This document shows positions 29,336 through 55,093 of a stretch of 64,000 bases of DNA, piece by piece. The notes below the pieces were generated by a model. That model did no database searches, was not told the origin of the DNA, and saw only the letters and a list, made by a program, of their open reading frames with translations. The stretch's first letter is position 1. Every line of letters starts with the position of its first letter. Made by a program: the position numbers and the translations under genes. The stretch is from Hymenobacter jeollabukensis (GTDB lineage Bacteria > Bacteroidota > Bacteroidia > Cytophagales > Hymenobacteraceae): NCBI RefSeq assembly GCF_005771675.1, contig NZ_VAJM01000009.1, forward strand, positions 186,001-250,000, given 5' to 3'.

Positions 29336-29339
29336 TTAA

Positions 29340-33841: not shown

Positions 33842-33888
33842 GCGGCAAGACGACGAGGCTGAACGGCTCCTGGGAGGTGCCAGGTGCT

Positions 33889-34075
33889 CAGAAACCATTG
33901 GTTTTGCCCAGGTGCGACGTCACATAAGGACGAAAACCACAGTTTCCGGGCATATGCGACGTCACATGAGGATAAAAACTGTGGTTTCCGGGCAAGTGCG
34001 ACGTCACATGAGGACGAAAACCACGGTTTTTGCCTTCATGTGACGTCGCACTTGGGTAAAATCAATGGTTTCCGG
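33889..34075. repeat. Element E: 42-nt tandem repeats nested in a long inverted repeat
   Basis: Three direct copies with a 42-nt period share the core GCGACGTCACAT (starting near 33914, 33956 and 33998). Outer inverted arms of about 35 nt (33889-33923 and 34039-34073) and an inner inverted pair (AAACCACAGTTT with AAACTGTGGTTT) fold the array back on itself. A plus-strand frame (33884-34177) runs through it as 14-residue repeats of the type ATSHEDENHGFRA. I consider the element non-coding, but the open frame is preserved. The remaining gap up to 34194 shows nothing else. Confidence 0.85.
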
Positions 34076-34194
34076 GTACCTGGGATGTCCTATGTGCCTC
34101 GCGGCAGCAGTTTTGCGCGTAGCAGCAGGCCCGGTAGGGTTCGAGTAAATGCAGAACAGACCTGCTACCTGGAATAAGGTGGATTCCACCGCGG

Positions 34195-35306: not shown

Positions 35307-35768
35307 TTACCGCTGCGCCGGCAGCGTCGAAATCAGGGCAGCTTCGCTCAGGTGCGGGTGGCGGTACTGGGCCGGGCTGCCCAAGGACTGCTGGGTGCGC
35401 ATCACGTTCATCTGCCGGGCGGCTTCGTTGAAAAATTCCAGGCGGCGGATGAGCATTTCCTTGGTCAGCACGCGGCCTTCGGGCGTCTTCATGTAGTCCT
35501 TCGCGTCGTCGAGCAGGCGGCGCATGATGGCGTTGCTGTTGTCGAAGCTGGCTTCGTACTGCTGCTTGAACTCGGCCACGCGGGCCAAGCCGTCGGTGGT
35601 GAGCTGAAACGAGGCGCCGCCGTGGTTGAGCACCTCGCTCAGCACGTAGATTTCCAGCGGCAGCGAGGTTTCGAGGGCCGTGGTGCGCAGGTCGAGGCCG
35701 GCGCGCAGCGCGTCGTCCACCATGTGCAGGTTGCGGGAAAAGCTGTCGTAGTAGCCTTGGACTTCCAT
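35307..35768 (-). CDS. Hypothetical all-helical protein
   Basis: 153 aa, soluble, mainly helical, starting MEVQGYYDSFSRNLHMVDDA and containing FKQQYEASFDNSNAIMRRLLDDAKDYM. No domain recognised. It lies downstream of the MoxR gene on the same strand, with repeat D between, so a link to MoxR function is possible but unproven. Confidence 0.6.
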   Translation of the reverse strand: MEVQGYYDSFSRNLHMVDDALRAGLDLRTTALETSLPLEIYVLSEVLNHGGASFQLTTDGLARVAEFKQQYEASFDNSNAIMRRLLDDAKDYMKTPEGRVLTKEMLIRRLEFFNEAARQMNVMRTQQSLGSPAQYRHPHLSEAALISTLPAQR

Positions 35769-35781
35769 GGGAAGAGAATGA

Positions 35782-35861
35782 TGAATTATGAATGCTGAAT
35801 TATGAATTTGATTCTGGCTTGGTGCGGAACGACCAATTCATAATTCAGCATTCATAATTCA
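35782..35861. repeat. Element D, heptamer-built inverted repeat
   Basis: Perfect 27-nt arms (35782-35808 and 35835-35861), each built of TGAATTA-type heptamers in a 7-nt period. The 26-nt loop contains TTCTGGCTTGGT, which is also the loop core of element C1. It ends 7 nt from the MoxR stop codon. Confidence 0.9.
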
Positions 35862-35867
35862 GAATTG

Positions 35868-36833
35868 CTAGAGCAGTTCCTGAACGATTTGGTCCACCGT
35901 CACGCCTTCGGCCTCGGCCTTGAAGTTGCGCACGATGCGGTGGCGCAGGATGGCCGGGGCCACGGCGCGCACGTCCTCGATGTCGGGGGAGTACTTGCCG
36001 TTGAGCAGGGCGTTGCACTTGGCCCCCACGATGAGGTGCTGCGAGGCGCGCGGACCGGCACCCCATTCCAGCAGCTGGGTGGCGCGCGGGGTGGCGCGGG
36101 GCCCGCCGGGGCGGGTTTTGTGCACCAGGTTCACGGCGTATTCGATGACGTTGTCCGTCACCGGCACGCGGCGCACCAGGTGCTGGAAGGCCTCGATTTC
36201 GTCGGCCTGCAGGATGCGCTGCACCGTGGGCTTGAAGTCGGCCGTGGTGTTTTTCACGATCTGCAGCTCGGCCTCGTAGCTGGGGTAGTCCAGCGTGATG
36301 TTGAACATGAAGCGGTCCAGCTGCGCCTCGGGCAGCGGGTAGGTGCCTTCCTGTTCGATGGGGTTCTGCGTCGCCAGCACGAAGAAGGGGCGCGGCAGCG
36401 CGTAACGCTGCCCGGCCACCGTCACGGCGTGCTCCTGCATGGCTTCGAGCAGGGCCGCCTGCGTCTTGGGCGGCGTGCGGTTGATTTCGTCGGCGAGGAT
36501 GATGTTGGCGAAAATCGGCCCCTTCACGAAGTGAAATTCGCGCTGCTGGTTGAGCGTTTCCGAGCCCACGATGTCAGAGGGCATCAGGTCGGGCGTGAAC
36601 TGAATGCGGTTGAAGGAGAGGTCCAGCGCGTTGCTGATGGTTTGCACCAGCAGCGTTTTGGCCAGACCCGGCACGCCCACCAGCAGGGCGTGGCCCTGCG
36701 AGAAAACGGCGGTCAGCATCAGCCGCACCACCTCGTCCTGCCCGATAATAACCTTACCGATTTCCTGCCGCAAGGTGCGGTACGACTGCGCCAGGGCGTC
36801 AGCCGCTTCTTTGTCCGAGGAGTATGTGCGCAT
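35868..36833 (-). CDS. MoxR-family AAA+ ATPase
   Basis: 321 aa. Walker A GVPGLAKTLL, Walker B ILADEINRTPPKTQAALLEAM, sensor 1 VLATQNPIEQEGTYPLPEAQLDRF and the C-terminal lid domain are intact. MoxR ATPases act as chaperones that help assemble or activate partner proteins, often with VWA-domain proteins; none is adjacent here. It follows the SurA-like gene on the same strand. Confidence 0.93.
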   Translation of the reverse strand: MRTYSSDKEAADALAQSYRTLRQEIGKVIIGQDEVVRLMLTAVFSQGHALLVGVPGLAKTLLVQTISNALDLSFNRIQFTPDLMPSDIVGSETLNQQREFHFVKGPIFANIILADEINRTPPKTQAALLEAMQEHAVTVAGQRYALPRPFFVLATQNPIEQEGTYPLPEAQLDRFMFNITLDYPSYEAELQIVKNTTADFKPTVQRILQADEIEAFQHLVRRVPVTDNVIEYAVNLVHKTRPGGPRATPRATQLLEWGAGPRASQHLIVGAKCNALLNGKYSPDIEDVRAVAPAILRHRIVRNFKAEAEGVTVDQIVQELL

Positions 36834-36845
36834 TAAGGGAGGTAT

Positions 36846-36942
36846 CAGTGGTCAGTTGCGAGTTGTCAGTGTAGCATGGTCGAGGTTCCGCGCCCGGAGG
36901 CTGCGTCAGGCCCGACAACTAAAAACGGACAACGGACAACCG
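36846..36942. repeat. Element I, degenerate heptamer inverted repeat
   Basis: The left side shows four TCAGTTG-like units and the right side four GGACAAC-like units, both with a 7-nt period and roughly complementary. It lies 2 nt from the SurA-like stop codon and fills the gap to the MoxR start. Confidence 0.6.
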
Positions 36943-36943
36943 C

Positions 36944-38323
36944 TTATTGTTCGGCATCCAGCACTTTGCAGCCGGCGTACTCGGGGTCTACTTCGATAAA
37001 CACGGTGCCGCGGTTGCGCAGGAACCACTCATCGAGGGCTTTATTTTTCTTCTGGTTCAGGGCCGCCAGCGCAATCTTCTGGTAGTCGTCCTTGAGGTTG
37101 GCCTGGTGGGGCGGGGTGTTCGACTTCAGCCAGATGATGCGCACCGCGTCCTTGCCGTCGTCGGTGCGGTAGGGCAGGGGCTTGCTGATGCGGCCCACCT
37201 TCATCGTGTCGATGGTGAAGAAGATGGCCGGGTCGAGCTGGTCGAGCGGAATGTAGGAGCTGCCGTCGCGGCGGTTGGCGAGCAGGCCCCCGTTGGCACC
37301 CGACTCCTTGTCCTCCGACATATCCTTGGCCGCTTTGGCGAAGGTGATGCTGTCGTGCTGAATGCGCGAGCGAAGCTTGAGCAGCGCCGCCGAAGCCGCG
37401 TCGATATCGGCGCCGCCCGATACGGGCTTCATCAGGATGTGGCGGGTGTTGTAGGAGTCGCCCTTCTTCTCGATCAGCTGAATCAGGTGGTAGCCGAACT
37501 GCGACTTGACGATGGGCGAGAGGCCGCCCGGCTCCATGCGCAGCGAGGCCGCTTCGTACTCGGGCACCAGCTCCTTGCGCTTGAAGAAGCCCAGGTTGCC
37601 GCCGTCCTTGGCCGATACCGGGTCTTCGGAATACTGCCGGGCGAGGGCGGCAAAATCGGCGCCGGCCAGAATCTGGGCGCGCAAATCGTTCATTTTGGCC
37701 ACCACGGCCTGCTCGGCCTTCTCATCGGGCTTGGCCAGCTTCACGATCTGGCCTACTTCCACTTCGGTGGAGTAGTAAGGCAGCGAATCCTTGGGAATCT
37801 TGTTGAAGAACTGGCGCACCTCGCGCGGCGTCACCGTCACCTTGCCAGCAATCTGGTCCTGCATTTTCTGCTGCACCAGCTGTTCCTTCACCTGAAGCCG
37901 CAGCTCCTCCTTGAGCTGGCGCAGGGGCTTGTTGTAGTACTCTTCGAGCTTCTTCTCCGAGCCGATCTGCTGGATGAAGTAGTTCATGCGGCGGTTCAGC
38001 TCGTTGTTTACCTGCGAGTCTTCCACCACCACCGAGTCGGTTTCGGCCTTGGCTACCAATAGCTTGTTGAGCGTGAGCGACTGCAGAATCTTGCACTGAA
38101 TGTCGGGCGGCAGGGGCTTGCCCTCGGCCTGCTGCAGCTGCTGCTGGTAGATGGCATCGAGGTCGGAGCGCAGCACAATCTGGTTGTCGACTTTCACGAT
38201 GATACCGTCGACGGTCTGGCGAGCGGGGCCCGAGCGGCCTACCCCGGCCAGGGTTTGCGCCTCAGCGCGGCCGAAAACCAGCACGGCCAGCAACAAGGCG
38301 GCGAAACGAAACAAATAGGTCAT
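36944..38323 (-). CDS. SurA-like periplasmic peptidyl-prolyl isomerase
   Basis: 459 aa from the ATG at 38323, giving a signal peptide (MTYLFRFAALLLAVLVFGRAEA). An N-terminal SurA chaperone region (about 35-170) contains VDGIIVKVDNQIVLRSDL. Two parvulin modules follow: about 180-290 with FAALARQYSEDPVSAKDGGNLGFF, and about 290-400 with NTRHILMKP and FAKAAKDMSED. It folds outer-membrane proteins in the periplasm. It is clustered with a second parvulin protein and MoxR. Confidence 0.92.
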   Translation of the reverse strand: MTYLFRFAALLLAVLVFGRAEAQTLAGVGRSGPARQTVDGIIVKVDNQIVLRSDLDAIYQQQLQQAEGKPLPPDIQCKILQSLTLNKLLVAKAETDSVVVEDSQVNNELNRRMNYFIQQIGSEKKLEEYYNKPLRQLKEELRLQVKEQLVQQKMQDQIAGKVTVTPREVRQFFNKIPKDSLPYYSTEVEVGQIVKLAKPDEKAEQAVVAKMNDLRAQILAGADFAALARQYSEDPVSAKDGGNLGFFKRKELVPEYEAASLRMEPGGLSPIVKSQFGYHLIQLIEKKGDSYNTRHILMKPVSGGADIDAASAALLKLRSRIQHDSITFAKAAKDMSEDKESGANGGLLANRRDGSSYIPLDQLDPAIFFTIDTMKVGRISKPLPYRTDDGKDAVRIIWLKSNTPPHQANLKDDYQKIALAALNQKKNKALDEWFLRNRGTVFIEVDPEYAGCKVLDAEQ

Positions 38324-38695
38324 GTCAGAAGAAAAAGCAACGGTGGCGGGCCCGGCAAACGCCCGATGACGGCCGACACTACCACCCCGCCAAGGCAAAC
38401 GCCACAAGCGGCCGGTAAATTTCAACATAAATAGCTGCGCGGACAAAAAGCCGGCCCGCTACGACCGAAAGAGCCCGGCTGCGGGGCCAGGGTTGCAAGC
38501 GTCCGGCCGTGGTTTTCGGCCAGTCGCCAGTCATTGCTGCGGCCGGTTAAAAAGCGCCACGGCTACAACCAAGTGGCCAAGAAATACCAGTAGCTTAAAA
38601 ATAGTGGTGCCACGGCTTTAAGCCGTGGCACCACTTCGTTCGGACGACAATCGTCCACAAAATCCGTGTCCGTCAAATCCGGAAAAATCCGTGGT
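38324..38695. other. Gap between PpiC and SurA genes
   Basis: No gene. It holds the SurA promoter region (no perfect TAnnTTTG seen), a 33-nt palindrome G (38603-38635, AGTGGTGCCACGGCTT and its complement), and element B3 next to the PpiC stop. Confidence 0.6.
38603..38635. repeat. Palindrome G
   Basis: Perfect 16-nt arms around one base; on either strand a strong hairpin. Possible terminator for the PpiC gene. Confidence 0.75.
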
Positions 38696-38698
38696 CTA
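38647..38698. repeat. Element B3, CGGATT-repeat element at the PpiC stop
   Basis: On the minus strand the stop TAG is followed at once by ACCACGGATT and further CGGATT units ending in GTGGACGATTGTC. Same design as B2 and B4, with a single arm. Confidence 0.8.
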
Positions 38699-41026
38699 CT
38701 TGGTGACCAGCTTGCTTACTTCGGCTTCGTTGACTTTCACCGGGTACTTGCCGCGCAGCTCCTGCACCCACTGCTGCTCCAGGTAGTTCTGGTAATCGGA
38801 AGTGGCCTGGCCGCGGGCTTCGGCGAGGGTTTTGGGGCCGGCGGGCAGCACTTTCTCCACCTTCACGGCGTAGTAGCGGCCATCCTGCTGCACGGTGTAG
38901 GTGCCGGGCTGCTGGGGCACGCCGTCCACCACTTTGTTGTCGCCTTTGGGGAAGGCCCGCTGCTGAATCTGCACGCCCAGCGGGTTCTGAGCCTGGTTGT
39001 TCAGCATTTCCTCCAGCACGCTGGGCTGAGAGCTGAGCAACTCAATTTTGGCCGTCGGTGCGCTGGCGCGCGCAGCCGTAGCGGAGCTGATGCGGTTGGC
39101 CGAAACCTTGCTGTCGGTCAGGAATTTTACCACGCGCTGGGTGCGGTCCTTGGCTAGGCTGGCTTTTTCACCGGCTTTGAACTGCCCCGTGACGCGCACG
39201 CTCATGTCCGGCTCGTTCACCAGCCGCTGCAGCAGCTTCGTGCGGTTGAGCAGCCCAATCTTGGTCATTTCCACCGAGTTGGGGCGGAACTCCAGGGCCG
39301 GCGGCATGTCGCGCTGCACTACGTACTGCCCCACGGCCAGCTGCTGCTGGGCTTTCTTGAGCAGCTCCGGCGTGGCGGCGTTGATGACGGTAGCCTGCAC
39401 GCGCGGCTCCCACTGGTATTTCGCCTGGTTCTCGGTGAAATACTTCTGCAGGCCCACGGTGTCCTCGATGGCCTTCGACCATACCTTCTCGTCCATCAGC
39501 TGGAACAGCAGAATTCCGTCGCGGTACTCTTTCACGAGCATGCGGTAGTCTTCGTGCTTGGTTTCCAGGTTGGCGCGCTCGTACTCCATCAGCGACTGAT
39601 CCACGAACTGGTCGTAGAGCAGCTGCATGGCGTAGCTGGGCGAGGTGCCAGGACGGGCCTGTTGGTGCTGGGCTGTGTAGTCGGCGAAGTCCTTCACCGT
39701 GTAGGCCTTGGTGCCGATGGTGAAGACCGGCGTAGCGCCGGCCACGGTGCTCTTTTTACCCTTGGCGGCCGGCACGTTGGTCAGCCGGGTCAGGTAAGGG
39801 TCGGTTTTGAAATGGCCGGCCGTCAGCGCGGTGTCGGCCTGGGCCAGCAGCAGGTCTTTTACCGGCGCCACTTCGGTGAAGTGGTTTTCGGTGCGCACGC
39901 GCTTGATGAAGGCGGCGCGGTTCAACTCGGAGCGGGAGTCTTTGGCTACTTTTTGCTTCAGCCCGGCCTCCGACTGCTCAAACGTGGGCACCGCCTGCTT
40001 TTCGATCAGCTTGATGATGTGCCAGCCGTAGGGCGTCTGCACGGGGCCGGCAAGCTGGCCCGGCGTCTGCAGCTTGAAGGCGGCCTCCTCGAAGGAGGGA
40101 ATCATGCGGCCGGTGCCGAAGGGCGGCAGCTCCCCGGCGTTAGCGGCTGAGCCCTGGTCCTCGGAGAACTGGGCCACGAGCTTGTCCCAGTTTTCACCCT
40201 TCTGCAGGCGGCTGTACAGCTCGTCGACCTTCTTCTTGGCCATGACGGAGTCGGCCTTGGGCATGCCGGGCGTGGCGCGCACCATCAGGTGAGCCACTTT
40301 GATTTCGCCCTGGGCCGGGCGCATGTCGTTGACCTTGATGATGTGGTAGCCGAAGCGCGTGCGGATCGGCTGCGACACTTGACCCACCGGCGTTTTGTAG
40401 GCCGCGGCCTCAAACGGGTACACCATCTGCAGGGCCGTGAAGTAGCCCAGGCGGCCGCCGTTTTCGCGGGCTGAGGGGTCTTCCGATGTTTCGCGGGCTA
40501 CTTTCTCGAAGTCCTCGCCGCCGGTTACGCGCTGGCGCAGGGCCACAATCTTGTTGTAGGCGGCCAGCGTGTCCTTGGGGTCGGCCTCGGGCGTGACGCG
40601 GATGAGAATGTGCGAGGCGTTGACCTCCTTCTGCATGTGCTCATACGCTTCGCGCACCAGCTGATCCGTGACGCTTTTCTCCGTCAGGTAGGGCTGGGCC
40701 AGCTGCTGCTTGTAGCCCTCCAGCTCGCGCTTGAAGGCCTGCGTAGTGTCGAGGCCTTTGGCTTCGGCTTCGATGACCTTCAGCTTGAAGTTGGTGTACA
40801 GGTTCAGGTATTCCTGCACACTGGCCTTGCTGCCGGCATCGGGGGCGGAGCTGTTGTTTTTGCGGTACACGTAGGCAAACTCCGACGCGGGCACTTCGTG
40901 GGTGCCCAGGGTCATCAGGACCGGCTGCGGGGTGGAGGTTGCGGTAGTGGGTTTAGTGGCCTGGCAAGCGGCCAGGAAGGCGGCCACCGCGGCGGCGCCG
41001 GAAAACAGAATGCGGTTGTTACGCAT
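38696..41026 (-). CDS. PpiC/PrsA-type peptidyl-prolyl isomerase lipoprotein
   Basis: 776 aa from the ATG at 41026. The lipobox (AAFLAAC) predicts a lipoprotein. Two parvulin domains are visible: about 140-245 with ASHILIRVTPEADPKD and FGYHIIKVNDM, and about 245-360 with KVAHLMVRATPG and YGWHIIKLIEKQ. A long C-terminal chaperone-like region follows, ending in a parvulin-like hydrophobic segment. It is much longer than E. coli PpiD. Together with the SurA-like gene and guaB it forms a grouping I associate with Bacteroidetes genomes (from memory, unverified). Confidence 0.9.
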   Translation of the reverse strand: MRNNRILFSGAAAVAAFLAACQATKPTTATSTPQPVLMTLGTHEVPASEFAYVYRKNNSSAPDAGSKASVQEYLNLYTNFKLKVIEAEAKGLDTTQAFKRELEGYKQQLAQPYLTEKSVTDQLVREAYEHMQKEVNASHILIRVTPEADPKDTLAAYNKIVALRQRVTGGEDFEKVARETSEDPSARENGGRLGYFTALQMVYPFEAAAYKTPVGQVSQPIRTRFGYHIIKVNDMRPAQGEIKVAHLMVRATPGMPKADSVMAKKKVDELYSRLQKGENWDKLVAQFSEDQGSAANAGELPPFGTGRMIPSFEEAAFKLQTPGQLAGPVQTPYGWHIIKLIEKQAVPTFEQSEAGLKQKVAKDSRSELNRAAFIKRVRTENHFTEVAPVKDLLLAQADTALTAGHFKTDPYLTRLTNVPAAKGKKSTVAGATPVFTIGTKAYTVKDFADYTAQHQQARPGTSPSYAMQLLYDQFVDQSLMEYERANLETKHEDYRMLVKEYRDGILLFQLMDEKVWSKAIEDTVGLQKYFTENQAKYQWEPRVQATVINAATPELLKKAQQQLAVGQYVVQRDMPPALEFRPNSVEMTKIGLLNRTKLLQRLVNEPDMSVRVTGQFKAGEKASLAKDRTQRVVKFLTDSKVSANRISSATAARASAPTAKIELLSSQPSVLEEMLNNQAQNPLGVQIQQRAFPKGDNKVVDGVPQQPGTYTVQQDGRYYAVKVEKVLPAGPKTLAEARGQATSDYQNYLEQQWVQELRGKYPVKVNEAEVSKLVTK

Positions 41027-41135
41027 ACAAAATAATTGGCACGAAAAAGCCGTCCGCACGCTAGATCACGCCCGGCGCGGACGGCTGCTTGTCGCAATGT
41101 TACGCAAAAATCGGCGCCTGCCGAAGCCTTAAAGC

Positions 41136-41546
41136 TCAGGGCAGGCGCTTACTCAGGCGGCAGAAATTGCGCGTACCGACGGTGGTGTACTCCACGTGGT
41201 CCATGATGCGGTTGACCAGGGCAATGCCCACGCCGCCTTTTTTGCCGATGCGGATGTGCTCCTGCAGGTCTGGGTCGCGGTATTCAGTGGGGGAGAAGGA
41301 CTGCCCGTCATCCTCGGCTTCAAAGCGAAACTCGTGGTCGGCAATTTCCACCCGGATGTCGAGGTGCTTGTGCTCGTCCTCGTGGTTGGAGTGAATGATC
41401 AGGTTGGCTACAATCTCGTCGACGGCCAGAATAATCTGGTTCTGCAGAATATCCGAGAGCTGGTGCTCCTGCAGCACGCCCGCCACAAAATCGCGCACCG
41501 TCTTCAGATTGCTGCGGCTGCAACTGACGCGGATGGTGTGCTGCAT
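41136..41546 (-). CDS. RsbW-like anti-sigma/switch kinase
   Basis: 136 aa from the ATG at 41546. GHKL ATPase motifs are intact: N-box VDEIVANLIIHSN, G1 DDGQSF and G2 GKKGGVGIALVNRIMD. RsbW/SpoIIAB-type kinases phosphorylate a STAS protein and bind a sigma factor or another output protein. It is last in a three-gene unit after the STAS protein (26 nt) and the PP2C phosphatase; no sigma factor gene is adjacent. Confidence 0.85.
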   Translation of the reverse strand: MQHTIRVSCSRSNLKTVRDFVAGVLQEHQLSDILQNQIILAVDEIVANLIIHSNHEDEHKHLDIRVEIADHEFRFEAEDDGQSFSPTEYRDPDLQEHIRIGKKGGVGIALVNRIMDHVEYTTVGTRNFCRLSKRLP

Positions 41547-41572
41547 GGCGAAATCGGGCGTAGACAACGAAA

Positions 41573-41902
41573 TTAAACGGCCGTAGCCTCCTGCTGGGTG
41601 GGCACGATGGTCATCAGCGAGTCGAGGCCCAGAATCTCGAACACGTTGTGGACTTTGTCCTGCATGTTGAAGAATACCAGCTTCACGCCGGCATCCTGAA
41701 AGCGCTGCAGGTGCGAGATGAATACCCCCAGACCGGCCGAAGAGATGTAGTTAAGGCGCTGGCAGTCAATCATTACCTTGCGGTAATCGAGCACGTCGGG
41801 CTTGGTCAGCTCTGTGTCGAGCGACACCGAGGAGCTGGCGTCCAGCTCGCCGTCGAGGGCGAGGGTGAGGGTATCGGTGGAGGCGTGGGGTACAATTTTC
41901 AT
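41573..41902 (-). CDS. STAS-domain anti-anti-sigma factor (RsbV-like)
   Basis: 109 aa. LTLALDGELDASSSVSLD at the N-terminus and VMIDCQRLNYISSAGLGVF hold the phosphorylatable Ser loop (SSAG). This is the substrate of RsbW-type kinases and SpoIIE/RsbU-type phosphatases. Position between the phosphatase and kinase genes fits a complete partner switch. Confidence 0.92.
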   Translation of the reverse strand: MKIVPHASTDTLTLALDGELDASSSVSLDTELTKPDVLDYRKVMIDCQRLNYISSAGLGVFISHLQRFQDAGVKLVFFNMQDKVHNVFEILGLDSLMTIVPTQQEATAV

Positions 41903-41922
41903 AGCTGAGTTCTACGCGGTGG

Positions 41923-44007
41923 TCAGGCGAGGGGTTGGGCGTTCTTGAACTTGATGATGAGCAGGGTCTGGTCGTCGAAGGGCGGCAGGCCGCGGCTGAA
42001 CTCCTCCACGTCGCGGATGATGCTCTGCTTGATGTCCTCGGCTTCGAGGTAGTGGCTGCGTTCCAGGAGCTTACGCAGGCGGTCCTCGCCGTACTCCTCG
42101 TCCTGGGCGTTGCGCGCCTCCACGATGCCGTCGGTATACATGACCATCACGTCGCCGGGATTGTAGTCGTAGTACATGTTCTTGATGCGCTTCTCGTAGG
42201 CCGCCCCGTCGCGCAGAATGCCCAGGCCGAGGCCTTCCGTCTGGAAATAGAACGTTTCCTCGGTAATGGCATTGTAGTAGAGCGTGTGGCAGTGCCCGGC
42301 CCGCGCGAAGGCGAAGCCCCGCTCTTTGTAATCGACGATGTAGAAGGAAGCGGTGATAAACGAACTGCGCTCCAGGCAGTGGCTCAGGGCCTGATTGGCC
42401 ATAGCCATGAACTTGCTCGGCTGCAGGGGCTGGCCCTTTTCGGGCTTGTCGAGCAGCATCAGCGAGTGGAAGATGCCCTTCATCTGGGCCACGTGGAAGG
42501 CCGCCGTGGTACCCTTGCCCGACACGTCGCCGATGATAATGGCAATGCGCGAGGCGCTCAGCTGCAGGAAGTCGTAGAAGTCGCCGCCCACTTCGCGGGC
42601 GGGCAGGCTGTGCCAGCGGATTTCAAACCAGCTGTCGGCGGGCAGGGTCTTCGGAATCAGGCTTTCCTGCACCAGGCTGGCAATCTTCAGCTCCTCCTTC
42701 ACTCGCTCCGACTGCAAGGACTCCTGCAGCAGGCGCAGGTTTTCGATGCTGAGCACCGTCTGGTTGGTGAAGATCTGCAGCAGGCTGAGGTTTTCGCGGT
42801 CGAAGCCCTGGCGCGTTTCCTTCAGCAGGTAGAGCGTGCCGTAGTGGTGCTTGGTGGAGCGCAGCGGCATCACGATGAGCGAGCCGTAAGGAAGCTCCAG
42901 GGCGCGGAAGCCGGCGCTGTTGGGCAGGTCGTTGTTGAGGTACTCGATGTGGCCGATGTTGTAATCGGCCAGCAGGCGGCAGATACCTTCACGGGTGGAC
43001 GCGTCTACCTGGTAGGAGAAGCCGGGCGCTCCGCCGTCGGTGTCGAGGTCGAGCCACGCGGCGTCGGCCTCCACCGTTTGCACGGCGGAATCAAACAGGA
43101 GCGAGTAGACCTCCTTTTCGCTTTGCCCTTTCTGAATCAGCTGGGAGAGGCGTTGCATGCTCAGGATTTCCTCGCGCTTCTGCTCGAATACGCCCGCAGT
43201 GGGCAGGTTGAACAGGGTCACGAGGAAGCCCATCACGGCGTAAAAACCGGCAAAGAAGCTGGTCAGGACCAGAAAGGCGTGCTGGGCCAGCGGGCCGGCC
43301 AGCTGCGGGTCGTCCTGCAGGCTATAGAAATAAGCCCCGAACACCGCCATGACGCCCAGAATAGCCAGCTGCAGAAACACGATTTCCCACTTCTGGCGGC
43401 GGTTCAGGTAGGCTATCCACTGCTGGTGCGCACTCAGGTACACGCCCAGGCCGGCCAGCAGCAGCAGCACCGGCAGGATAAACCAGGAAATCGTGTCGCC
43501 GCTGACCAGGCGGAACATCAGGGCCACGCCCAGCAGTACCTCAAACCAGCGCCATTCCTGCCGGATGCGCGGCTGGGAGCGGAAAAACACCAAGGACCGC
43601 CACGTGTAGCAGGTGCGGGCCAGGAAGTAGACGAAGAGGCCGAGGTTGATGACGTAGAACGTGTTCAGCAGCACCGGGCCGCGGTCGGGCACGTAGGCGG
43701 CGAGCAGGTGCTCGGTGAGGTGCAGCACCACGCACACGGCCGCCAGGGCGCCGGGCCAAACCAGCAGCTGGCGCAGCAGGGGCACAAACTCGGTGCCGCG
43801 CAGGCGGTCGGGGCGGGCCCGCTCGTGCAGGAAGACACCGGCGGCAAACAGGGCCTGGGTGGTCAGAATGGCCCAGTCGGGGGGAAAGCCCCAGCGGGCC
43901 GCCGCGGGTGGGCTGGCGCGCAACAACATGCACAGCAACAGCCCCAGCCAACTGAGCACCGCCACGGGCAGGGCTAGCGGAATAAGCTTGCGGAGCAGTG
44001 CAATCAT
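41923..44007 (-). CDS. Membrane GAF-PP2C (RsbU/SpoIIE-like) phosphatase
   Basis: 694 aa from the ATG at 44007 (starts MIALLRKLIPLALPVAVLSW); the frame extends upstream but past the likely promoter. About seven hydrophobic segments span residues 5-260, a GAF domain spans about 290-440, and a SpoIIE-type PP2C domain spans about 465-690 with REVGGDFYDF, GDVSGKGTTAAFH, ARAGHCH, YTDGIVEA and FDDQTLLII. It would dephosphorylate the STAS protein encoded next, freeing it to bind the kinase. The signal is sensed in the membrane or GAF region. A minus-strand TATCTTGG box (44067-44074) lies 60 nt upstream. Confidence 0.92.
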   Translation of the reverse strand: MIALLRKLIPLALPVAVLSWLGLLLCMLLRASPPAAARWGFPPDWAILTTQALFAAGVFLHERARPDRLRGTEFVPLLRQLLVWPGALAAVCVVLHLTEHLLAAYVPDRGPVLLNTFYVINLGLFVYFLARTCYTWRSLVFFRSQPRIRQEWRWFEVLLGVALMFRLVSGDTISWFILPVLLLLAGLGVYLSAHQQWIAYLNRRQKWEIVFLQLAILGVMAVFGAYFYSLQDDPQLAGPLAQHAFLVLTSFFAGFYAVMGFLVTLFNLPTAGVFEQKREEILSMQRLSQLIQKGQSEKEVYSLLFDSAVQTVEADAAWLDLDTDGGAPGFSYQVDASTREGICRLLADYNIGHIEYLNNDLPNSAGFRALELPYGSLIVMPLRSTKHHYGTLYLLKETRQGFDRENLSLLQIFTNQTVLSIENLRLLQESLQSERVKEELKIASLVQESLIPKTLPADSWFEIRWHSLPAREVGGDFYDFLQLSASRIAIIIGDVSGKGTTAAFHVAQMKGIFHSLMLLDKPEKGQPLQPSKFMAMANQALSHCLERSSFITASFYIVDYKERGFAFARAGHCHTLYYNAITEETFYFQTEGLGLGILRDGAAYEKRIKNMYYDYNPGDVMVMYTDGIVEARNAQDEEYGEDRLRKLLERSHYLEAEDIKQSIIRDVEEFSRGLPPFDDQTLLIIKFKNAQPLA

Positions 44008-44149
44008 GCGTGGTGGTGGAGAGGGCAAGGCGCCGTCAAAAAACGGCAACGAGGGCGACAGGAGGACCAAGATACGAACCACCCAGAAAATAGATAAGCC
44101 CTTTAACGGGCTTTTAATTAGGAGGTACTGGCAGTCAGCGGTATACCAA

Positions 44150-44177
44150 AACCGCCGCCCCAAAGTGGGCGGCGGTT
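44150..44177 (-). terminator. guaB terminator
   Basis: An 11-bp perfect stem (AACCGCCGCCC with GGGCGGCGGTT), 6-nt loop; on the minus strand followed by TTGG, a weak U tract. Confidence 0.5.
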
Positions 44178-44241
44178 CGGCGTAAAACAACTCGGAAAAC
44201 GTCCGGAAGCAGCGTCAGCCGTTTCCGGATCAAGACCAGAA

Positions 44242-45768
<1,527 letters not shown>

Positions 45769-45852
45769 CGGCGAATTTCGGACTCCCGACGAATCGGCGG
45801 CTTACTTAATGGAAAGCTGACGGGATACATGCCCGGGGCCAAGAACCAAACA

Positions 45853-45982
45853 AGAACGTCATTCCGAGCTTGTCGAGGAATCTCGCGTGGGTTCGTCCGA
45901 GAGTAGAATTCTCGTTGAACGAAAGGAATAGTACCCGAACATCAACACGCGAGATTCCTCGCCAAGCTCGGAATGACGTTCT
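45853..45982. repeat. Palindromic element A3
   Basis: 37-nt inverted arms (45853-45889 and 45946-45982, few mismatches) starting AGAACGTCATTCCGAGC, loop 56 nt. It ends 22 nt from the DUF2490 gene stop and may terminate it. Confidence 0.85.
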
Positions 45983-46003
45983 GAGTAGCGGCGTAACTGG
46001 TGC

Positions 46004-46783
46004 TCAATATCCTGGCGGCAGCGGCGCGGCCATGGGCGCGTCCGCCCGCAAATCCAGGTTCAGCAGCAGGCTCAATTGCAGGGTGTGGTTGTGCTCGAAT
46101 ACCCGGCCGTTGCGCTGCTGTAGCAACTGATTGAGGTAGCCGGCTTCCAGGCGCACCAGTTTGGAAGCGGTGTAGCCCAGGCCGGCGTAGAGGCGGTTCT
46201 GATCGAAACGGTTGGGGGCATTGCGGCCAAAATTCACCAGGATTTCGTCGGAGGCAATGAGGTAGGGCATGCGCGTGGTCAGCCTGGGGCCGAGCAGGGG
46301 CAGCAGCAGGCCGAGCTGGTAGCGGGTGCGGTTCTGGTAGGTGAAGCGGTTGGCTTCGGGCCAGCGAATCCAGCGCTGCTCCAGGCGGTAGCGGTGCAGC
46401 AGCTGCACCCGGCCCGATACGTCCTGCACCTGCACCTGCTGATAAAAGCCGTGCTCGGGCGCCGATTCGGACGCGGCGAACTGGCCGTAGGGGTAAATCT
46501 TCTGGTAGAGCGCGCCGGCGCCCAGCTGAAAGTGCTGGCCGAGGTGGTAGTTGGCGGCGAGGCGCAGCACCGTTTGCTGGGGCTTGCGGCCCTGGTCGGC
46601 GCGGCGCAGCTGCATTTCGGCGTAGCTGCTCCACTTATCGGTGAGGCGCAGCTGGCCGGCGCCGACCAGCCAAAGGTTGTCGTTGCGTTCGGCCACGCGG
46701 GCTTCGGGCAGCTGTTGGGCGGCGACGAACAAAGGAAGGAAGAAGGCCAGCAGCGGGCCGGTAGCGCGGAAAAGTGCAGTCAT
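46004..46783 (-). CDS. DUF2490 outer-membrane-type protein
   Basis: 259 aa from the ATG at 46783, giving a signal peptide (MTALFRATGPLLAFFLPLFVAAQ). Mature sequence begins NDNLWLVGAGQLRLTDKWSSY, the DUF2490 hallmark, followed by a series of amphipathic strands. The family is a predicted small outer-membrane beta-barrel common in Bacteroidetes; function unknown. Divergent from the FRG gene. Confidence 0.85.
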   Translation of the reverse strand: MTALFRATGPLLAFFLPLFVAAQQLPEARVAERNDNLWLVGAGQLRLTDKWSSYAEMQLRRADQGRKPQQTVLRLAANYHLGQHFQLGAGALYQKIYPYGQFAASESAPEHGFYQQVQVQDVSGRVQLLHRYRLEQRWIRWPEANRFTYQNRTRYQLGLLLPLLGPRLTTRMPYLIASDEILVNFGRNAPNRFDQNRLYAGLGYTASKLVRLEAGYLNQLLQQRNGRVFEHNHTLQLSLLLNLDLRADAPMAAPLPPGY

Positions 46784-46868
46784 GCCGGGGCGGGAAAAAA
46801 GGCGGACGACCAGTGTTATCAAACTGTTACCGAAGATCGGTCAAGGTTACGGGAATGTTACGCTTTGG

Positions 46869-46907
46869 TATGTTAAGTTTTCGGCCGGTGTATGTTAAGT
46901 TTTTCGG
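46869..46907 (+). repeat. Two direct TATGTTAAGTTTT repeats
   Basis: TATGTTAAGTTTTCGG at 46869 and TATGTTAAGTTTTTCGG at 46891, 22 nt apart, in the divergent gap between the DUF2490 and FRG genes. Two helical turns apart, so they suit binding of a dimeric regulator. No protein is assigned. Confidence 0.5.
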
Positions 46908-46949
46908 GATGCGGTGCCGCCCGCGGAGCCGGGGCTGGCTGCCCCGCGC

Positions 46950-46957
46950 CAACTTTG
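46950..46957 (+). promoter_or_regulatory. Candidate -7 box for the FRG gene
   Basis: CAACTTTG, one base off TAnnTTTG, 27 nt before the ATG at 46984. Confidence 0.35.
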
Positions 46958-46983
46958 CGTACTTGCAGGGCCGCTTGGCCCCA

Positions 46984-47844
46984 ATGCTCCCGCCCGTGTC
47001 CACCTCCCCCAACGAAATTGAAGTCAGCTCCTGGGAGGAGCTGCAGCACGTCCTGTTCCGCGACACCTGGGACGGCCGCCTCGGCCGGTTCCGCTCGCCG
47101 TTTGTGTACCGGGGGGTACGTTCCAGGGCCTACACCCTCAGCACCAGCCTGCAGCGCCTCGGCGGGCCCTACCACGAGCTGGAAAACCACTTGCTGCGCA
47201 ACTTCCGCAAGTACGCCCACGACACGGCCGTGCCCGATCATTCCTCGGTGTGGGACTGGCTGGCGGTGGCCCAGCACCACGGTCTGCCCACCCGCCTGCT
47301 CGACTGGACGTACTCGCCCTACGTGGCCCTGCACTTCGCCACCGACGACCTCGAAGCCTACGACCAGGATGGCGTTATCTGGGCGCTGAACTACGTGAAG
47401 GCGGCCGAGTACATGCCCCAGCGGCTGCGCGAGGCCCTGCGCGCCGAGGGCTCCAACGTGTTTACGCCCGAGCTGCTGCAGCCCGTGTGCCGCAACCTGC
47501 GCGAGCTGGGCGACATGCAGCCCGAGCAGCCGTTTCTGCTGTTTCTGGAGCCGCCCTCGCTGGATGCGCGCATCATCCACCAGTACGCTTTGTTCGCCCT
47601 TATGTCGACGCCGCACGCCAACCTGGACAGCTGGCTGGAAGAGCACCCGGAGCTGTTTTACCGCATCATCCTGCCGGCCCGCCTGAAGTGGGAAACCCGC
47701 GACAAGCTCGATCAGGCCAATATCACCGAGCGGGTGCTGTTCCCGGGCCTGAGCGGACTGAGCCGCTGGCTGCACCGCCACTACAGCCCCACCACCGGCC
47801 ACGGCGGCCAGCCCCTCGACTCCGGCCGCGACCCGCTGGGTTAG
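46984..47844 (+). CDS. FRG-domain protein
   Basis: 286 aa from the ATG at 46984. The FRG domain is clear: FVYRGVRSRAYTLSTSLQRL at about 40-60 and VAQHHGLPTRLLDWTYSPYV at about 95-115. FRG proteins are a scattered family of unknown activity, sometimes found in mobile or defence contexts. Here the neighbours are ordinary. A RNA-like CGGATTCG/CGAATCCG inverted pair follows the stop. Confidence 0.85.
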   Translation: MLPPVSTSPNEIEVSSWEELQHVLFRDTWDGRLGRFRSPFVYRGVRSRAYTLSTSLQRLGGPYHELENHLLRNFRKYAHDTAVPDHSSVWDWLAVAQHHGLPTRLLDWTYSPYVALHFATDDLEAYDQDGVIWALNYVKAAEYMPQRLREALRAEGSNVFTPELLQPVCRNLRELGDMQPEQPFLLFLEPPSLDARIIHQYALFALMSTPHANLDSWLEEHPELFYRIILPARLKWETRDKLDQANITERVLFPGLSGLSRWLHRHYSPTTGHGGQPLDSGRDPLG

Positions 47845-47919
47845 TAGATAGCGGATTCGTAGCCGCTGGCTGGTGCGGGCCGAATCCGTAGCTTGGCCGA
47901 CCAACCCAACGGCCCCGTC

Positions 47920-48738
47920 ATGGTTATTGCCCAGCTCAGCGACACCCACATCAACGACGACGCGCCGGAGGCCGCCGTCCGGCTACGGGCGGCCGTGGCG
48001 CACCTGCTGCACCTGCCGGCCGTGCCCGACATCGTCCTGCTCACCGGCGACTGCGCCGAGCACGGTACGGCCAGCGAATACGCGCAGCTGCGGGAGCTGC
48101 TGCGGCCGCTGACCGTGCCCGTCTACGTCATCCTCGGCAACCACGACGACCGGCCGCGGCTGCGGGCGCTGTTCGGGGCGCAGGGCGAGCAGACCATGCC
48201 CGAATTCATGCAGTACACAGTGGCGGCCGGGCCGCTGCGGCTGCTGGCGCTGGATACTCACGTGCCGGGGCAGGACGGCGGCACGCTGTGCCCCGCCCGC
48301 CTGCAGTGGCTGGAGGAGCGACTCACGGAGCAGCCCGAGCGGCCCACCATCATCCTGATGCACCACCCGCCGTTCCGCTGCGGCCTCGCGCCCTTCGACG
48401 CCATCGGACTGGACGCCATAGCCGAATTCGGCGCCGTGCTAGCCCGGCACCCGCAGGTGACGCGCGTGCTGGCCGGGCACCTGCACATGGCCATGCAGCG
48501 GCCCCTGCACTCAGCCCTGGCGGTTACCTGCCCCTCCACACTACACCAGCTGCTGGCTGATGTTCGGCGCCCGGCCGGGCTGGAAGTCCGGTTCGACCCG
48601 CCCGCCGTGCTGCTGCACACCTGGTCGGACGATACCGGTCTGCTCACGCACACCAGCCCCATCGGGGAGCCTGGGCCAGTAGTCGTCATGCACGACGGGC
48701 AGCAGTGGCAGGCGCCACCGTGGCCGGTGCGCGGGTGA
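47920..48738 (+). CDS. CpdA/Icc-like metallophosphoesterase
   Basis: 272 aa from the ATG at 47920 (MVIAQLSDTHIND), preferred over a TTG 27 nt upstream. Calcineurin-like metal motifs are complete: SDTHI, TGDCAEHG, GNHDD, LMHHPP and AGHLHMAMQ. It resembles cyclic-AMP phosphodiesterase CpdA and related class III enzymes; substrate not determined. It converges on hrpB with palindrome F between. Confidence 0.9.
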   Translation: MVIAQLSDTHINDDAPEAAVRLRAAVAHLLHLPAVPDIVLLTGDCAEHGTASEYAQLRELLRPLTVPVYVILGNHDDRPRLRALFGAQGEQTMPEFMQYTVAAGPLRLLALDTHVPGQDGGTLCPARLQWLEERLTEQPERPTIILMHHPPFRCGLAPFDAIGLDAIAEFGAVLARHPQVTRVLAGHLHMAMQRPLHSALAVTCPSTLHQLLADVRRPAGLEVRFDPPAVLLHTWSDDTGLLTHTSPIGEPGPVVVMHDGQQWQAPPWPVRG

Positions 48739-48739
48739 G

Positions 48740-48843
48740 GTAGCGCGAAGCTCTGCTGCGCGTATTCAGCGCGTTAATCATCGATATACCTAACCTGTTC
48801 TGCGGCAATCGTTCGGAATACGCGCAGCAGAGCTTCGCGCTAC
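48740..48843. repeat. Palindrome F between convergent genes
   Basis: Perfect 27-nt inverted arms (48740-48766 and 48817-48843) starting GTAGCGCGAAGCTCTGCTGC, with a 50-nt loop. It fills the whole gap between the metallophosphoesterase stop (1 nt away) and the hrpB stop (4 nt away). Confidence 0.9.
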
Positions 48844-48847
48844 GGCG

Positions 48848-51382
48848 CTACATGCCTTCCAGCCGCTTCTTGGTCAGCTTAGTGGGAATGTGGTTCATAG
48901 GGTCGTCGGGCCAGGGGTGCTTGGGGTAGCGGCCCTTCAGGTCCTTGCGCACCTCGAAGTAGCCTTTCTCCCAGAAGCTGCGCAGGTCGCGGGTGACCTG
49001 GGCGGGGCGGCCGCCGGGGCTGAGCAGGTGCAGCAGCAGCGGCACTCGGCCGGCGGCCACGGCGGGCGTTTCTACCAGCCCAAACAGCTCCTGCAGCTTC
49101 ACGGCCAGCACCGGCGCGGCCGGGTCGCCGTAGTCGATGCGGACGTGGGAGCCGCTGGGCACTTCCAAGTGCGCGGGTGCGAGACGGTCCAGCTCCTGGC
49201 GCTGGGCCCAACCGCCGGGCAGGCGCTGCAGCAGCAGCTCAGCCACGTCGAGGCGGCCTACGTCGGCGAGGCTGCGCAGGCCGGCCAGGTTGGGCGCCAG
49301 CCACTCGTCGGCATCGGCCAGCAGGGCTTCGGTGGAGGCGGCGGGCCAGTCGGCGGGATTGAGGTGGTGCAGGAAGGTCAGCCGCTCGCGCAGCTGCTGG
49401 GCGTGCTCGGTCCAGTTGAGGGCGCGCAGCTCCCCGTCGCGCACGGCCGTGAGCAGGGCCGCCGCCACGTCGTCGGCGCTGGGGTTGGGCAGGTTGGTTT
49501 CCGACAGCACCAGCGCGCCCAGGCGGCGCAGCTTGCGGGCCAGCACCCGGCCGGTAGCCGCGTCGAACTGCACTTCAGCCTGCTCGCTGATTTGCTCCCG
49601 GAACAGCTCTTCTACCTCCACCTTGGTCAGCGGCGCGGCCAGGGCGGCGCGGGGCGCGTTGGCGGGGCCGTCGAGGTGGGCGGCGGCGAAAAACACGTCG
49701 GAGCCGGCGAAAAACTCGGCTGGCAGCTGCACCCGCTGTCCGGTGACGAGGCGCAGCCGGTCCGAGCCTTCGCGCTGGCCGAGGCGGTCGGGGTAGGCGA
49801 GGGCGGCCAGCAGGCCGGCTACGTCGGGCTCCAGGTCGGCTGATTTCACGCCGGCGCGGCCCCGCAGGGCAGTAGCGGCTTCGCGGACGCGGCGTAGGCC
49901 CTGGCTGTCGGGCTGCAGGCCGGGCAGGGGCGCGCGGCCGGTTTGCAGGGCTTCGAGGCGCAGACGCAGGTCGGGCGGGGCGGGGCGGCCGTCGGTGGCG
50001 CGCAGGATGTCGCGCTCGGCCAGCAGGGCGGCGAGGGCGCAGGCCGTGGGGCCGTGGCCCAGCTCCCGGCCGCGCACCACCAAGTGGCCCAGGCGCGGCG
50101 GCAAGCCCAGGCGGGCCAGCTCGCGGCCGTGCGGGGTGGGCTGACCGGCCGGCGTGAGGGCGCCGAGGCGCACCAGCAGCTCCCGGGCCTGGGCCAGCGC
50201 CGGGGCGGGCGGGGCATCGAGCCAGAGCAGATTTTGCGCTTCGGCGCCCCACAAGGCCAGCTCCAGGGCCAGGGCGCTGAGGTCGGCGGTGAGGATTTCG
50301 GGCGCGAGGTGGGCGGGCAGCGCGGCCTGGTCGATTTCGGGCCAGAGGCGGTAGCACACGCCGGGGCCGAGGCGGCCAGCGCGGCCCCGGCGCTGGTCGG
50401 CGGCGGCCTGGCTGACGGGCACGGTTTCGAGCGTGGTGAGGCCGGTGCGGGCAATGAAGCGCGGCACCCGGGCAAAGCCGCCGTCCACGACCACCCGCAC
50501 GCCTTCGATGGTGAGGCTGGTTTCGGCAATGCTGGTGGCCAGCACCACCTTGCGCCGGCCGGCGGGGGCGGGGCGCAGGGCGGCATCCTGCTTGTCGAGC
50601 GGCAACTCGCCGTGCAGCACGTGAAGGTCGATTTCCGTGGGCAGCGTGGCTTCCAGCTTTTCGCCCACGCGGCGCTGGTCGGCCAGGCCGGGCAGGAATA
50701 CCAGCACATCGCCGGCTTGGGTGTTCAGCGCCTCGCGCACGGTGGCGGGCGTCAACTCGGCCAGCCGCTCGCCGGGGCGGTTCGAGAGGCCGGCGGCGCG
50801 GCGCGGGCTCAGGTAAATCGTTTCGACGGGGTACATGCGGCCCTCGCTCGTCACCACCGGGGCCTGCAGCCAGGGGCCGAGCCGGGCCGCGTCCAGCGTG
50901 GCCGACATCACGACGAGGCGCAGATCGGGCCGCAGTACCTGCTGGGCGTCGAGGGTGAGGGCCAGGCCCAGGTCGGCCTGCAGGCTGCGCTCGTGAAACT
51001 CGTCGAAGAGCACGGCGGCCACGCCTTCCAGGGCCGGGTCGTCCTGCACCATGCGCGTGAGGATGCCCTCGGTGACGACTTCGATGCGGGTGCGGGCCGA
51101 AACCTTGTTTTCGAGGCGCACGCGGTAGCCGACGGTCTGGCCCACTGGCTCACCCAGCAGCTGGGCCATGCGGGTGGCGGCGGCGCGGGCGGCCAGCCGG
51201 CGCGGCTCCAGCACGATGATTTTGCCTTCCGCGGGCCGCCAGGGCGCGTCCAGCAGGGCCAGCGGCACCAGCGTGGTCTTGCCGGCGCCCGGCGGGGCCT
51301 GCAGCACGACGCGGTTGCCGGCCACCAGGGCCGCCAGCAGCTCGGGCAGCGCGGCGCGAATCGGCAGATCGGGGAAGGTCAA
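48848..51382 (-). CDS. hrpB: ATP-dependent RNA helicase HrpB
   Basis: 844 aa from a TTG at 51382 (TTG-ACC-TTC-CCC...), the first codon of the conserved region; upstream in-frame codons are repeat C1. DEAH-type motifs: Walker A APPGAGKTTL, DEFHERS, SATLDA, and QRRGRAGRLGPG (motif VI). The HrpB-specific C-terminus (about 490-840) ends with PKHPWPDDPMNHIPTKLTKK. HrpB helicases are common bacterial RNA helicases of uncertain role. A non-ATG start next to the repeat is unusual. Confidence 0.92.
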   Translation of the reverse strand: MTFPDLPIRAALPELLAALVAGNRVVLQAPPGAGKTTLVPLALLDAPWRPAEGKIIVLEPRRLAARAAATRMAQLLGEPVGQTVGYRVRLENKVSARTRIEVVTEGILTRMVQDDPALEGVAAVLFDEFHERSLQADLGLALTLDAQQVLRPDLRLVVMSATLDAARLGPWLQAPVVTSEGRMYPVETIYLSPRRAAGLSNRPGERLAELTPATVREALNTQAGDVLVFLPGLADQRRVGEKLEATLPTEIDLHVLHGELPLDKQDAALRPAPAGRRKVVLATSIAETSLTIEGVRVVVDGGFARVPRFIARTGLTTLETVPVSQAAADQRRGRAGRLGPGVCYRLWPEIDQAALPAHLAPEILTADLSALALELALWGAEAQNLLWLDAPPAPALAQARELLVRLGALTPAGQPTPHGRELARLGLPPRLGHLVVRGRELGHGPTACALAALLAERDILRATDGRPAPPDLRLRLEALQTGRAPLPGLQPDSQGLRRVREAATALRGRAGVKSADLEPDVAGLLAALAYPDRLGQREGSDRLRLVTGQRVQLPAEFFAGSDVFFAAAHLDGPANAPRAALAAPLTKVEVEELFREQISEQAEVQFDAATGRVLARKLRRLGALVLSETNLPNPSADDVAAALLTAVRDGELRALNWTEHAQQLRERLTFLHHLNPADWPAASTEALLADADEWLAPNLAGLRSLADVGRLDVAELLLQRLPGGWAQRQELDRLAPAHLEVPSGSHVRIDYGDPAAPVLAVKLQELFGLVETPAVAAGRVPLLLHLLSPGGRPAQVTRDLRSFWEKGYFEVRKDLKGRYPKHPWPDDPMNHIPTKLTKKRLEGM

Positions 51383-51385
51383 GTG

Positions 51386-51469
51386 GTGAAGTGGTGAGAT
51401 GGTGAACTGGTGAGTTGACGTTCTGGCTTGGTAGACGGCACTCACCAGTTCACCATCTCACCACTTCAC
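51386..51469. repeat. Element C1, octamer-built inverted repeat
   Basis: Perfect 30-nt arms (51386-51415 and 51440-51469) built of GTGAACTG-like octamers in an 8-nt period. The 24-nt loop contains TTCTGGCTTGGT, shared with element D. It ends 4 nt from the rhodanese stop and abuts the hrpB start. Confidence 0.9.
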
Positions 51470-51915: not shown

Positions 51916-51937
51916 ACAAAAGTAGCTTCGGAGTCGT

Positions 51938-55050: not shown

Positions 55051-55093
55051 GGTCCTGCTTACCCCCGCCGCTTTCCGGATGGAAACCCAAAAG

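Follow-up and report, generated by a model that had tools for sequence, protein, structure and literature searches.

The window analysed here, a stretch of 64,000 nucleotides from Hymenobacter jeollabukensis (contig NZ_VAJM01000009.1, positions 186,001 to 250,000), contains hairpins whose arms are built from tandem copies of a short word. Two of them, elements D and C1 (Table 1), differ in their arms and have a string of their loops in common. This raises the question of what such elements are, and of which part of them is conserved. The original prediction was that a conserved loop core is surrounded by arms that are regenerated, by slippage or by an enzyme. The reading preferred here is that D and C1 probably belong, as gene-less ('miniature') members, to a widespread class of elements resembling the intervening sequences (IVSs) of rRNA genes and occupying intergenic slots. 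It builds on the anatomy of the elements, their dispersal, the occupancy and switching of their slots and their association with two protein families.

An element of this class consists of inverted arms, each made of a short word repeated several times, on either side of a centre that may be gene-less (sometimes holding a transcription terminator) or may carry a small gene, encoding an IVP protein where the words are of 7 or 8 nt and a GxxExxY protein where they are of 9-10 nt. Elements lie in the gap that separates the stop of one gene from the start of its neighbour. By analogy with rRNA IVSs, the arms would form an RNA stem cut by RNase III, so that insertion inside operons would be tolerable. 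Gene-less forms would be elements that have lost the gene and spread via proteins made in trans; a change of word at a slot would mean that a different element has taken the place of the old one in full. Since the window elements have loops of up to 104 nt without an S23p/IVP four-helix-bundle gene, and D, C1 and the other intergenic elements are set between predicted protein genes and not in a 23S rRNA gene, they are referred to as IVS-like and gene-less, not as IVSs.

Word-armed elements and their gene-bearing relatives

The perfect inverted arms described for both elements (27 nt of period 7 in D, 30 nt of period 8 in C1) were borne out. Arm autocorrelation was 0.80 at period 7 for D and 0.78 at period 8 for C1, and the predicted RNA folds were strong (-39.4 kcal/mol, z -10.9 for D; -62.2 kcal/mol, z -11.9 for C1). 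The same design had been claimed for elements labelled H, I and B2-B4. It does extend to the octamer element C2 and to a nonamer element, but the arms of H are only weakly periodic (0.39 at period 8). No coordinates matching the labels I and B3-B4 were found, and a tandem-tract scan of the window gave one nonamer pair.

Eight genomes of the genus (G000-G007) were compared, G000 being the 6.18 Mb genome of the window. A search for inverted pairs of tandem tracts with period 7-9 covered 2.05 Mb on six contigs from three Hymenobacter-group genomes, with genes called by our own script. It returned 94 candidates, 78 of them intergenic. The 16 overlapping predicted genes were mostly GC-rich coding repeats, but include C2 and two G002 elements (672472, 878641), which were counted here because the gene caller reads through them. 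On G000 contig C1, 62 of 125 tracts had an inverted partner (32/42 of period 7, 25/30 of period 8), against 1 of 16 in shuffled sequence; the shuffled controls of all six contigs yielded one partnered tract in total. The intergenic elements of period 7 or 8 lie mainly between co-directional genes (59 of 75, with 9 in convergent and 7 in divergent gaps), the corresponding figures for all gaps of at least 70 nt being 774, 205 and 264. The 78 intergenic elements fill a median fraction of 0.90 of their gaps. Their words are diverse, and include GGTGAAAT, GAATGAGT, AAATGGCT and ATTGCTTA among octamers, GAATTAT, GTTGTCA, GGTGACA, AATTAAT, CAATGAA, AGGAGCT and TCGTTTT among heptamers, and CGGATT-type nonamers.

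A closer inspection of the arms showed that they recur. Allowing up to 3 mismatches, and including overlapping matches in pure arrays, the 27-nt arm of D matched 33 times in G000, 29 in G007, 7 in G002, 4 in G003, 2 in G006, once in G004 and not at all in G001 and G005 (reversed control, 0). Its exact sequence is found on G000 contigs C12 and C21 and on G007 contig C1 at 400740/400837 (a perfect pair), 3406729 and 3491908. All of these lie outside the slot of D, and the loops beside them differ from that of D, contrary to the claim that the arms are the changeable part. The arm on C21 has no partner, and the palindrome that the script reported there is a different one; in view of their similar flanks, the C12 and 3491908 sites may be orthologous. 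For the arms of the nonamer element, too, both G000 and G002 gave many matches, most of those listed being 88-98% identical. Since arms recur at dispersed sites while loops vary, the arms are the conserved part of a dispersed family. For sampled G000 elements, the best full-length paralogue had a median identity of 0.66 and a maximum of 0.81 (shuffled, 0.50), leaving this sample without any very recent copy.

By eye, a U-tract terminator or GC-rich hairpin is bracketed by word arms on contig C1 of G000 (55728, 95570, 179539, 389043 and 525857) and of G007 (1030314, 1300740). Pure heptamer arrays of about seven or more units with no inverted partner detected were also observed (G000 C27:31420, C1:48456, C1:530937), and may be slippage expansions of single arms.

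At two loci, nonamer arms of the type found in the window lie about 600-800 nt apart and enclose a GxxExxY gene. The genus was therefore searched for PF05635 (23S_rRNA_IVP, a four-helix bundle) and PF13366 (PDDEXK_3, GxxExxY, with a PD-(D/E)XK fold). There were 23 IVP matches in seven of the eight genomes and 8 GxxExxY matches in four, two of the latter (L360, L361) resembling pieces of one split gene. A scan of eight of the proteins against NCBIfam and Pfam named them four helix bundle protein (TIGR02436) and GxxExxY protein (TIGR04256), and the protein of L331 has a solved relative, 2gsc (XCC0516). Inverted word arms (score at least 16 and periodicity at least 0.55, within 300 nt) flank 22 of the 23 IVP loci and 2 of 427 control genes of 300-600 nt. 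Six of the 8 GxxExxY matches reach the score of 16 within 300 nt, and all 8 within 450 nt. The pooled best period was 7 for 15 IVP loci and 8 for the other 8; it was 9 for three and 10 for four GxxExxY matches (L361 uncounted, as the other piece of L360).

Moreover, gene-bearing loci use the words of gene-less elements, namely GGTGAAAT (L346/L347), AAATGGCT (L336), AATTAAT (L341), CAATGAG (L342), AGGAGCT (L343), GTTGTCA (L334/L335/L339) and CGGATT (L354-L356), the last being the arm family of the window nonamer element. L346 and L347 belong to the octamer family of C1, and have inner ends of the TGACGTTC type. Two IVP matches contain an internal stop (L335 in G000, L337 in G006) and have stop-free relatives; together with the split-looking GxxExxY gene, they are read as putative signs of gene decay.

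A tblastn search of plasmids gave 30 records with IVP, mostly from cyanobacteria, and 5 with GxxExxY, of which 19 and all 5 respectively were inspected. At 12 of the 19 IVP loci, mostly cyanobacterial, the inverted arms were unreached in 200 shuffles. Their words include TAGGGAG (Nostoc edaphicum), CAGGGAA (Nostoc C052), AGGTGAC (Anabaena 90) and GGGCAGGA (Gemmatirosa), and an Azospirillum locus is also among them. ACAGAG/GCAGAGG-type arms flank the GxxExxY genes of Gemmatirosa and Bacteroides finegoldii (each 0/200 shuffles) and Bernardetia (1/200). Three cyanobacterial plasmid loci (L364, L369, L370) have word-armed IVP genes standing among CRISPR cas genes, between cas6 and cas4 or between cas10 and cmr3.

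Short tandem heptamer repeats of cyanobacteria are known as STRRs. The original prediction had cited them as a loose analogue lacking the paired arm layout; however, heptamer arrays there do form inverted pairs around four-helix-bundle genes. Against this correction, the GGGGA(C/T)T repeat of Anabaena/Nostoc forms only few pairs in the published survey, as far as its available text goes (PMC4692102).

The similarity of arms follows the relatedness of the proteins between them. Protein identity and arm similarity were correlated among proteins less than 60% identical (Mantel test, r = 0.24, p = 0.0004, n = 28) and within the genus (r = 0.27, p = 0.003, n = 17), and nearest protein neighbours shared their period in 22 of 28 cases (permutation p = 0.027). 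L332 was dropped from this sample for its arm score and plasmids contributed only the 12 loci with significant arms, so the test is silent on loci without arms.

Inheritance and replacement at orthologous slots

A region of G002 (contig C11, 600-1000 kb) is colinear with G000 contig C1 (16-400 kb) at about 92% identity, which allowed elements to be compared slot by slot. Twenty orthologous slots were classified by eye. Twelve hold the same word family in both genomes, 6 hold another word family in G002 (with short or weak arms in two, 55728 and 179539) and 2 hold a repetitive extragenic palindromic sequence (REP) of the CGTC type. Thus 8 of 20 slots hold another word or a REP in a near relative, and in none of the 20 was the gap of the other genome short or empty. 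At switched slots, the flanking sequence remains almost unchanged as far as the stop or start codon. Some elements were not counted, for want of both flanks matched (G000 87936, 216868 and 299671, and some of G002), and others were left out as coding repeats although matched (G000 64101 and 354465; G002 649366, 952505 and 977617). An automatic matrix of 210 orthologous gaps caught only some of the elements. It gave five gaps with a periodic hairpin in one genome only, 3 of which hold same-family elements below the score cut and 2 GC-rich stretches without word arms.

Where the word family is the same, the arms are inherited. Eleven same-family orthologous elements gave 36 vertical, 5 concerted and 4 cross site patterns, the vertical count being somewhat inflated because the fixed 42-nt windows extend into the loop in places and a few arms are poorly aligned. 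This speaks against the claim that arms are regenerated. Mutual correction of the two arms, whether through gene conversion or template switching, was rejected on the same counts, at the time scale of G000 and G002. Whole-element replacement does occur at slots; in this wider sense, arms are indeed swapped. Switched slots often keep their unit length, and a gradual morphing of one word into another may also take place. By eye, what is seemingly one gene gap in G003 and G007 (L357/L358) has clearly different GxxExxY proteins and arms between nearly identical flanks.

Some slots were also compared more widely. The fabZ-lpxA slot has the CAATGAA word in six of the eight genomes and AATT-type words in G002 and G006. 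In an automatic paired-arm test on 30 genomes of the family (the best-scoring loci of 150 genomes searched), 23 passed at fabZ-lpxA and 23 at lpxD-lpxC (shuffled, 0). By eye, the words at lpxD-lpxC include GTTGTCA, AGGAGCT, GCTGTTA, GTTTCTG and GAAGTGA.

Several results weigh against D and C1 being gene-less members of an IVS-like class. The moxR slot, that of D itself, passed the strict arm test in only 6 of 22 genomes, the remainder having CGTC-type REPs or nothing that passes; permanent occupancy of this slot by word arms is not supported. None of the 23 IVP loci has the word of D, which is therefore placed by its architecture. Among the gene-bearing loci, L332 fails the arm test and L338, L344, L352 and L359 are marginal, and only 2 of the 8 GxxExxY matches pass the periodicity cut used for IVP, because words of 9 or 10 nt are less regular. 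On plasmids, 7 of 19 IVP loci do not beat shuffles, although four of these have heptamers on the 5' side and a short 3' remnant, and 2 of 5 GxxExxY loci (Sphingomonas and a Fusobacteria record) are not significant. The correlation of arms with proteins is not significant below 45% identity (n = 10, p = 0.12). Finally, no transposition event or target duplication was seen (no dedicated test for target-site duplications was made) and none of the 20 slots is empty in the relative, so that mobility is inferred from dispersal and replacement.

The strongest rival is that these are ordinary type II miniature inverted-repeat transposable elements (MITEs), in which an unseen transposase would bind the repeated word and the IVP and GxxExxY genes would be passengers. 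The arms do act like conserved terminal inverted repeats, common to dispersed copies as in MITEs, around variable interiors, and copy numbers are patchy between close species. However, no transposase was found between the arms at the gene-bearing loci looked at (no systematic transposase search was made). Passengers would also have to be the same two protein families across phyla, each with its own word lengths, and arms would have to track protein relatedness. We therefore consider this rival unlikely.

The shared loop string

As originally described, the loops of D and C1 share TGA, then TTCTGGCTTGGT, then ACG. Such a match exceeds chance. Among the 25 G000 elements with loops of at most 40 nt (300 pairs), D and C1 form the best pair; one of 400 shuffle trials produced a match of 12 nt, and none of 400 did so for heptamer-octamer pairs alone. 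When all 53 G000 loops (52 intergenic elements and C2) are taken, a match of 12 nt or more is found in 9 of 1378 pairs, and also arises in 11 of 60 shuffle trials. Long loops dominate this wider test, so the signal from D and C1 rests on short loops. Moreover, GTTC is enriched near loop ends (27/96, against 2/96 in shuffled loops), unevenly between families: it was found at 19 of 40 ends in GGTGA octamers, 6 of 46 in heptamers and 2 of 10 in other octamers.

With this in mind, the original model, in which the core is conserved and slippage or an enzyme regenerates the arms, can be weighed, as can a weaker form in which loop ends persist and the word of both arms is rewritten. The 12 nt common to D and C1 and the GTTC enrichment favour it, as does one switched slot (G000 305543, G002 700567) where the arms differ and both loops keep GTTC and GAAC ends. 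The genome-wide search that the original prediction had proposed gave a different picture, since the 12-mer TTCTGGCTTGGT has only 3 copies in 6.18 Mb, the third without inverted arms (reversed control, 0). A fixed core across the genome is thereby ruled out. In addition, same-family slots inherit their arms vertically, and within a word family it is the arms that are conserved and not the loops. Of the earlier interpretation, the repeated design and a loop string beyond chance stand, while the fixed core and the regeneration do not. We regard this model as very improbable, even in its weaker form, and TTCTGGCTTGGT is read as a loop-end feature of some word families rather than a core that defines the elements.

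Least probable is selection of RNA hairpins for an intergenic function (terminator, mRNA stabiliser or insulator), with arms free to change provided that they pair: slots do stay filled while their sequence changes, folds are strong and some centres hold U-tract terminators (by eye), but same-family orthologues have few paired changes (5 concerted against 36 vertical), and words are common to different slots and species, which selection on pairing alone does not predict.

Related repeats and other features of the window

The closest known relatives of the IVS-like class are the rRNA IVSs. That of Coxiella has a 28-bp terminal stem, an S23p open reading frame, tandem heptamers and excision by RNase III, according to the available text of PMC4990558. 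Long-stem terminal inverted repeats, a PF05635 protein, heptamers near its reading frame and small size are thus held in common (PMC4990558, in part). In contrast, the elements described here lie between protein genes, are mostly gene-less, have arm words that vary by slot, and include a second class with a GxxExxY gene and words of 9-10 nt. D resembles STRRs in its tandem 7-nt intergenic units; C1 is octameric.

In Xanthomonas, 70 and 75 cases of inverted heptamer pairs are recorded in the survey of PMC4692102, as far as it is available. The heptamers of Xanthomonas/Nostoc (PMC4692102) and of Beggiatoaceae (PMC4679880) are treated in the accessible parts of these papers as direct repeats or G-quadruplexes. 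No protein link is made for the former, the terms S23 and four helix being absent from the accessible text of PMC4692102. Among the papers listed in searches of the open-licence literature, none was found to connect inverted tandem-word repeats between genes with either IVP or GxxExxY. Homology of PF05635 with Avd, a protein of diversity-generating retroelements, is discussed in PMC10053308 (available in part), and Avd models gave weak matches, below the curated cut-off, in 2 of 5 IVP proteins scanned.

REPs, units of 20-40 bp with a GTAG or CGTC tag (PMC3733652, in part), and bacterial interspersed mosaic elements are also dispersed intergenic palindromes, and CGTC-type repeats share slots with word-armed elements here. 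However, the arms of D and C1 begin with neither GTAG nor CGTC and are word-periodic, a periodicity not described for REPs in the available text of PMC3733652. In word-armed elements, CGTC is confined to octamers, where it stands at the inner loop end as GAACGTCA. A search for the Y1 transposase linked to REPs (RAYT), a candidate driver, gave one Y1_Tnp match in the genome (C3:154920). A Porphyromonas gingivalis MITE with an internal minisatellite also combines inverted and tandem repeats, but its tandem repeat is reported to lie within the MITE and not to form the arms (PMC4596501, in the portion available).

A bolder extension, which we put forward only tentatively, is a cross-phylum class of mobile elements defined by the word, in which an IVP (Avd-like) or GxxExxY protein might read an arm word of 7/8 or 9/10 nt, respectively, and whole elements might be swapped at fixed intergenic slots by copying and replacement, via RNA/cDNA or a nuclease cut. 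Arms of this kind or their remnants would then account for cyanobacterial STRRs, CTCTGCG-type nonamers and many of the heptamer arrays in Bacteroidota. The IVS-like class itself offers a possible origin for the puzzling tandem repeats of 7-9 nt in several bacterial groups. The tie to two protein families, with word length following protein class, makes the function and movement of such repeats testable and gives two small, little-studied families a setting. rRNA intervening sequences would be extended to intergenic elements that fill, and repeatedly change, the gaps between genes.

Table 1. Positions and anatomy of word-armed elements in the window.
Feature	Position	Strand	Description
Element D	35782-35861	.	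Gene-less word-armed hairpin, heptamer word TGAATTA/TGAATGC
Arms of D	35782-35808 and 35835-35861		Perfect, 27 nt; loop 26 nt
Neighbours of D	35868-36833; 35307-35768	-	Stop of moxR-like gene (35868-36833) on one side; start of next gene (35307-35768) on the other
Element C1	51386-51469	.	Octamer word, GGTGAAAT type
Arms of C1	51386-51415 and 51440-51469		Perfect, 30 nt; loop 24 nt
Neighbours of C1		-	Rhodanese gene stop and hrpB-like helicase start; gene names by eye
Element C2	51804-51915	.	Octamer word; imperfect 32-nt arms, 48-nt loop
Position of C2			A few nt upstream of rhodanese start codon
Element H	29251-29337	.	AAATGGCT octamer-type hairpin; arms 82% complementary, weak periodicity
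Nonamer (CGGATT) element	30138-30339	.	Perfect 49-nt arms, 104-nt loop

Other features of the window were noted alongside these elements. The Bacteroidota -7 consensus is TAnnTTTG. A TACTTTTG box lies on the - strand at 51917-51924 and C2 starts just downstream of it, which may place the hairpin at the very start of the rhodanese mRNA; by eye, the arrangement is the same in G002, G005 and G006. In an Rfam scan of the window at the gathering cut-off, a thiamine pyrophosphate (TPP) riboswitch was the sole match. CGTC-type REP pairs (AGAACGTCATnCTGAGC ... ATGACGTTCT and related forms) are found at 14600-14683, 21203-21316, 45853-45982 and 54962-55051. Their motif AGAACGTCA also appears at the inner loop end of octamer elements, whose slots they take in some relatives. 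A GTAG-REP-like perfect palindrome of 28 nt, with GTAGCGCGAAGC at its start and a 48-nt loop, lies at 48740-48843. A 42-nt tandem repeat (TGCGACGTCACATGAGGACGAAAACC...) at 33865-34098 is nested and partly inverted, with 102-nt arms that are 75% complementary, and is distinct from the word-armed class.

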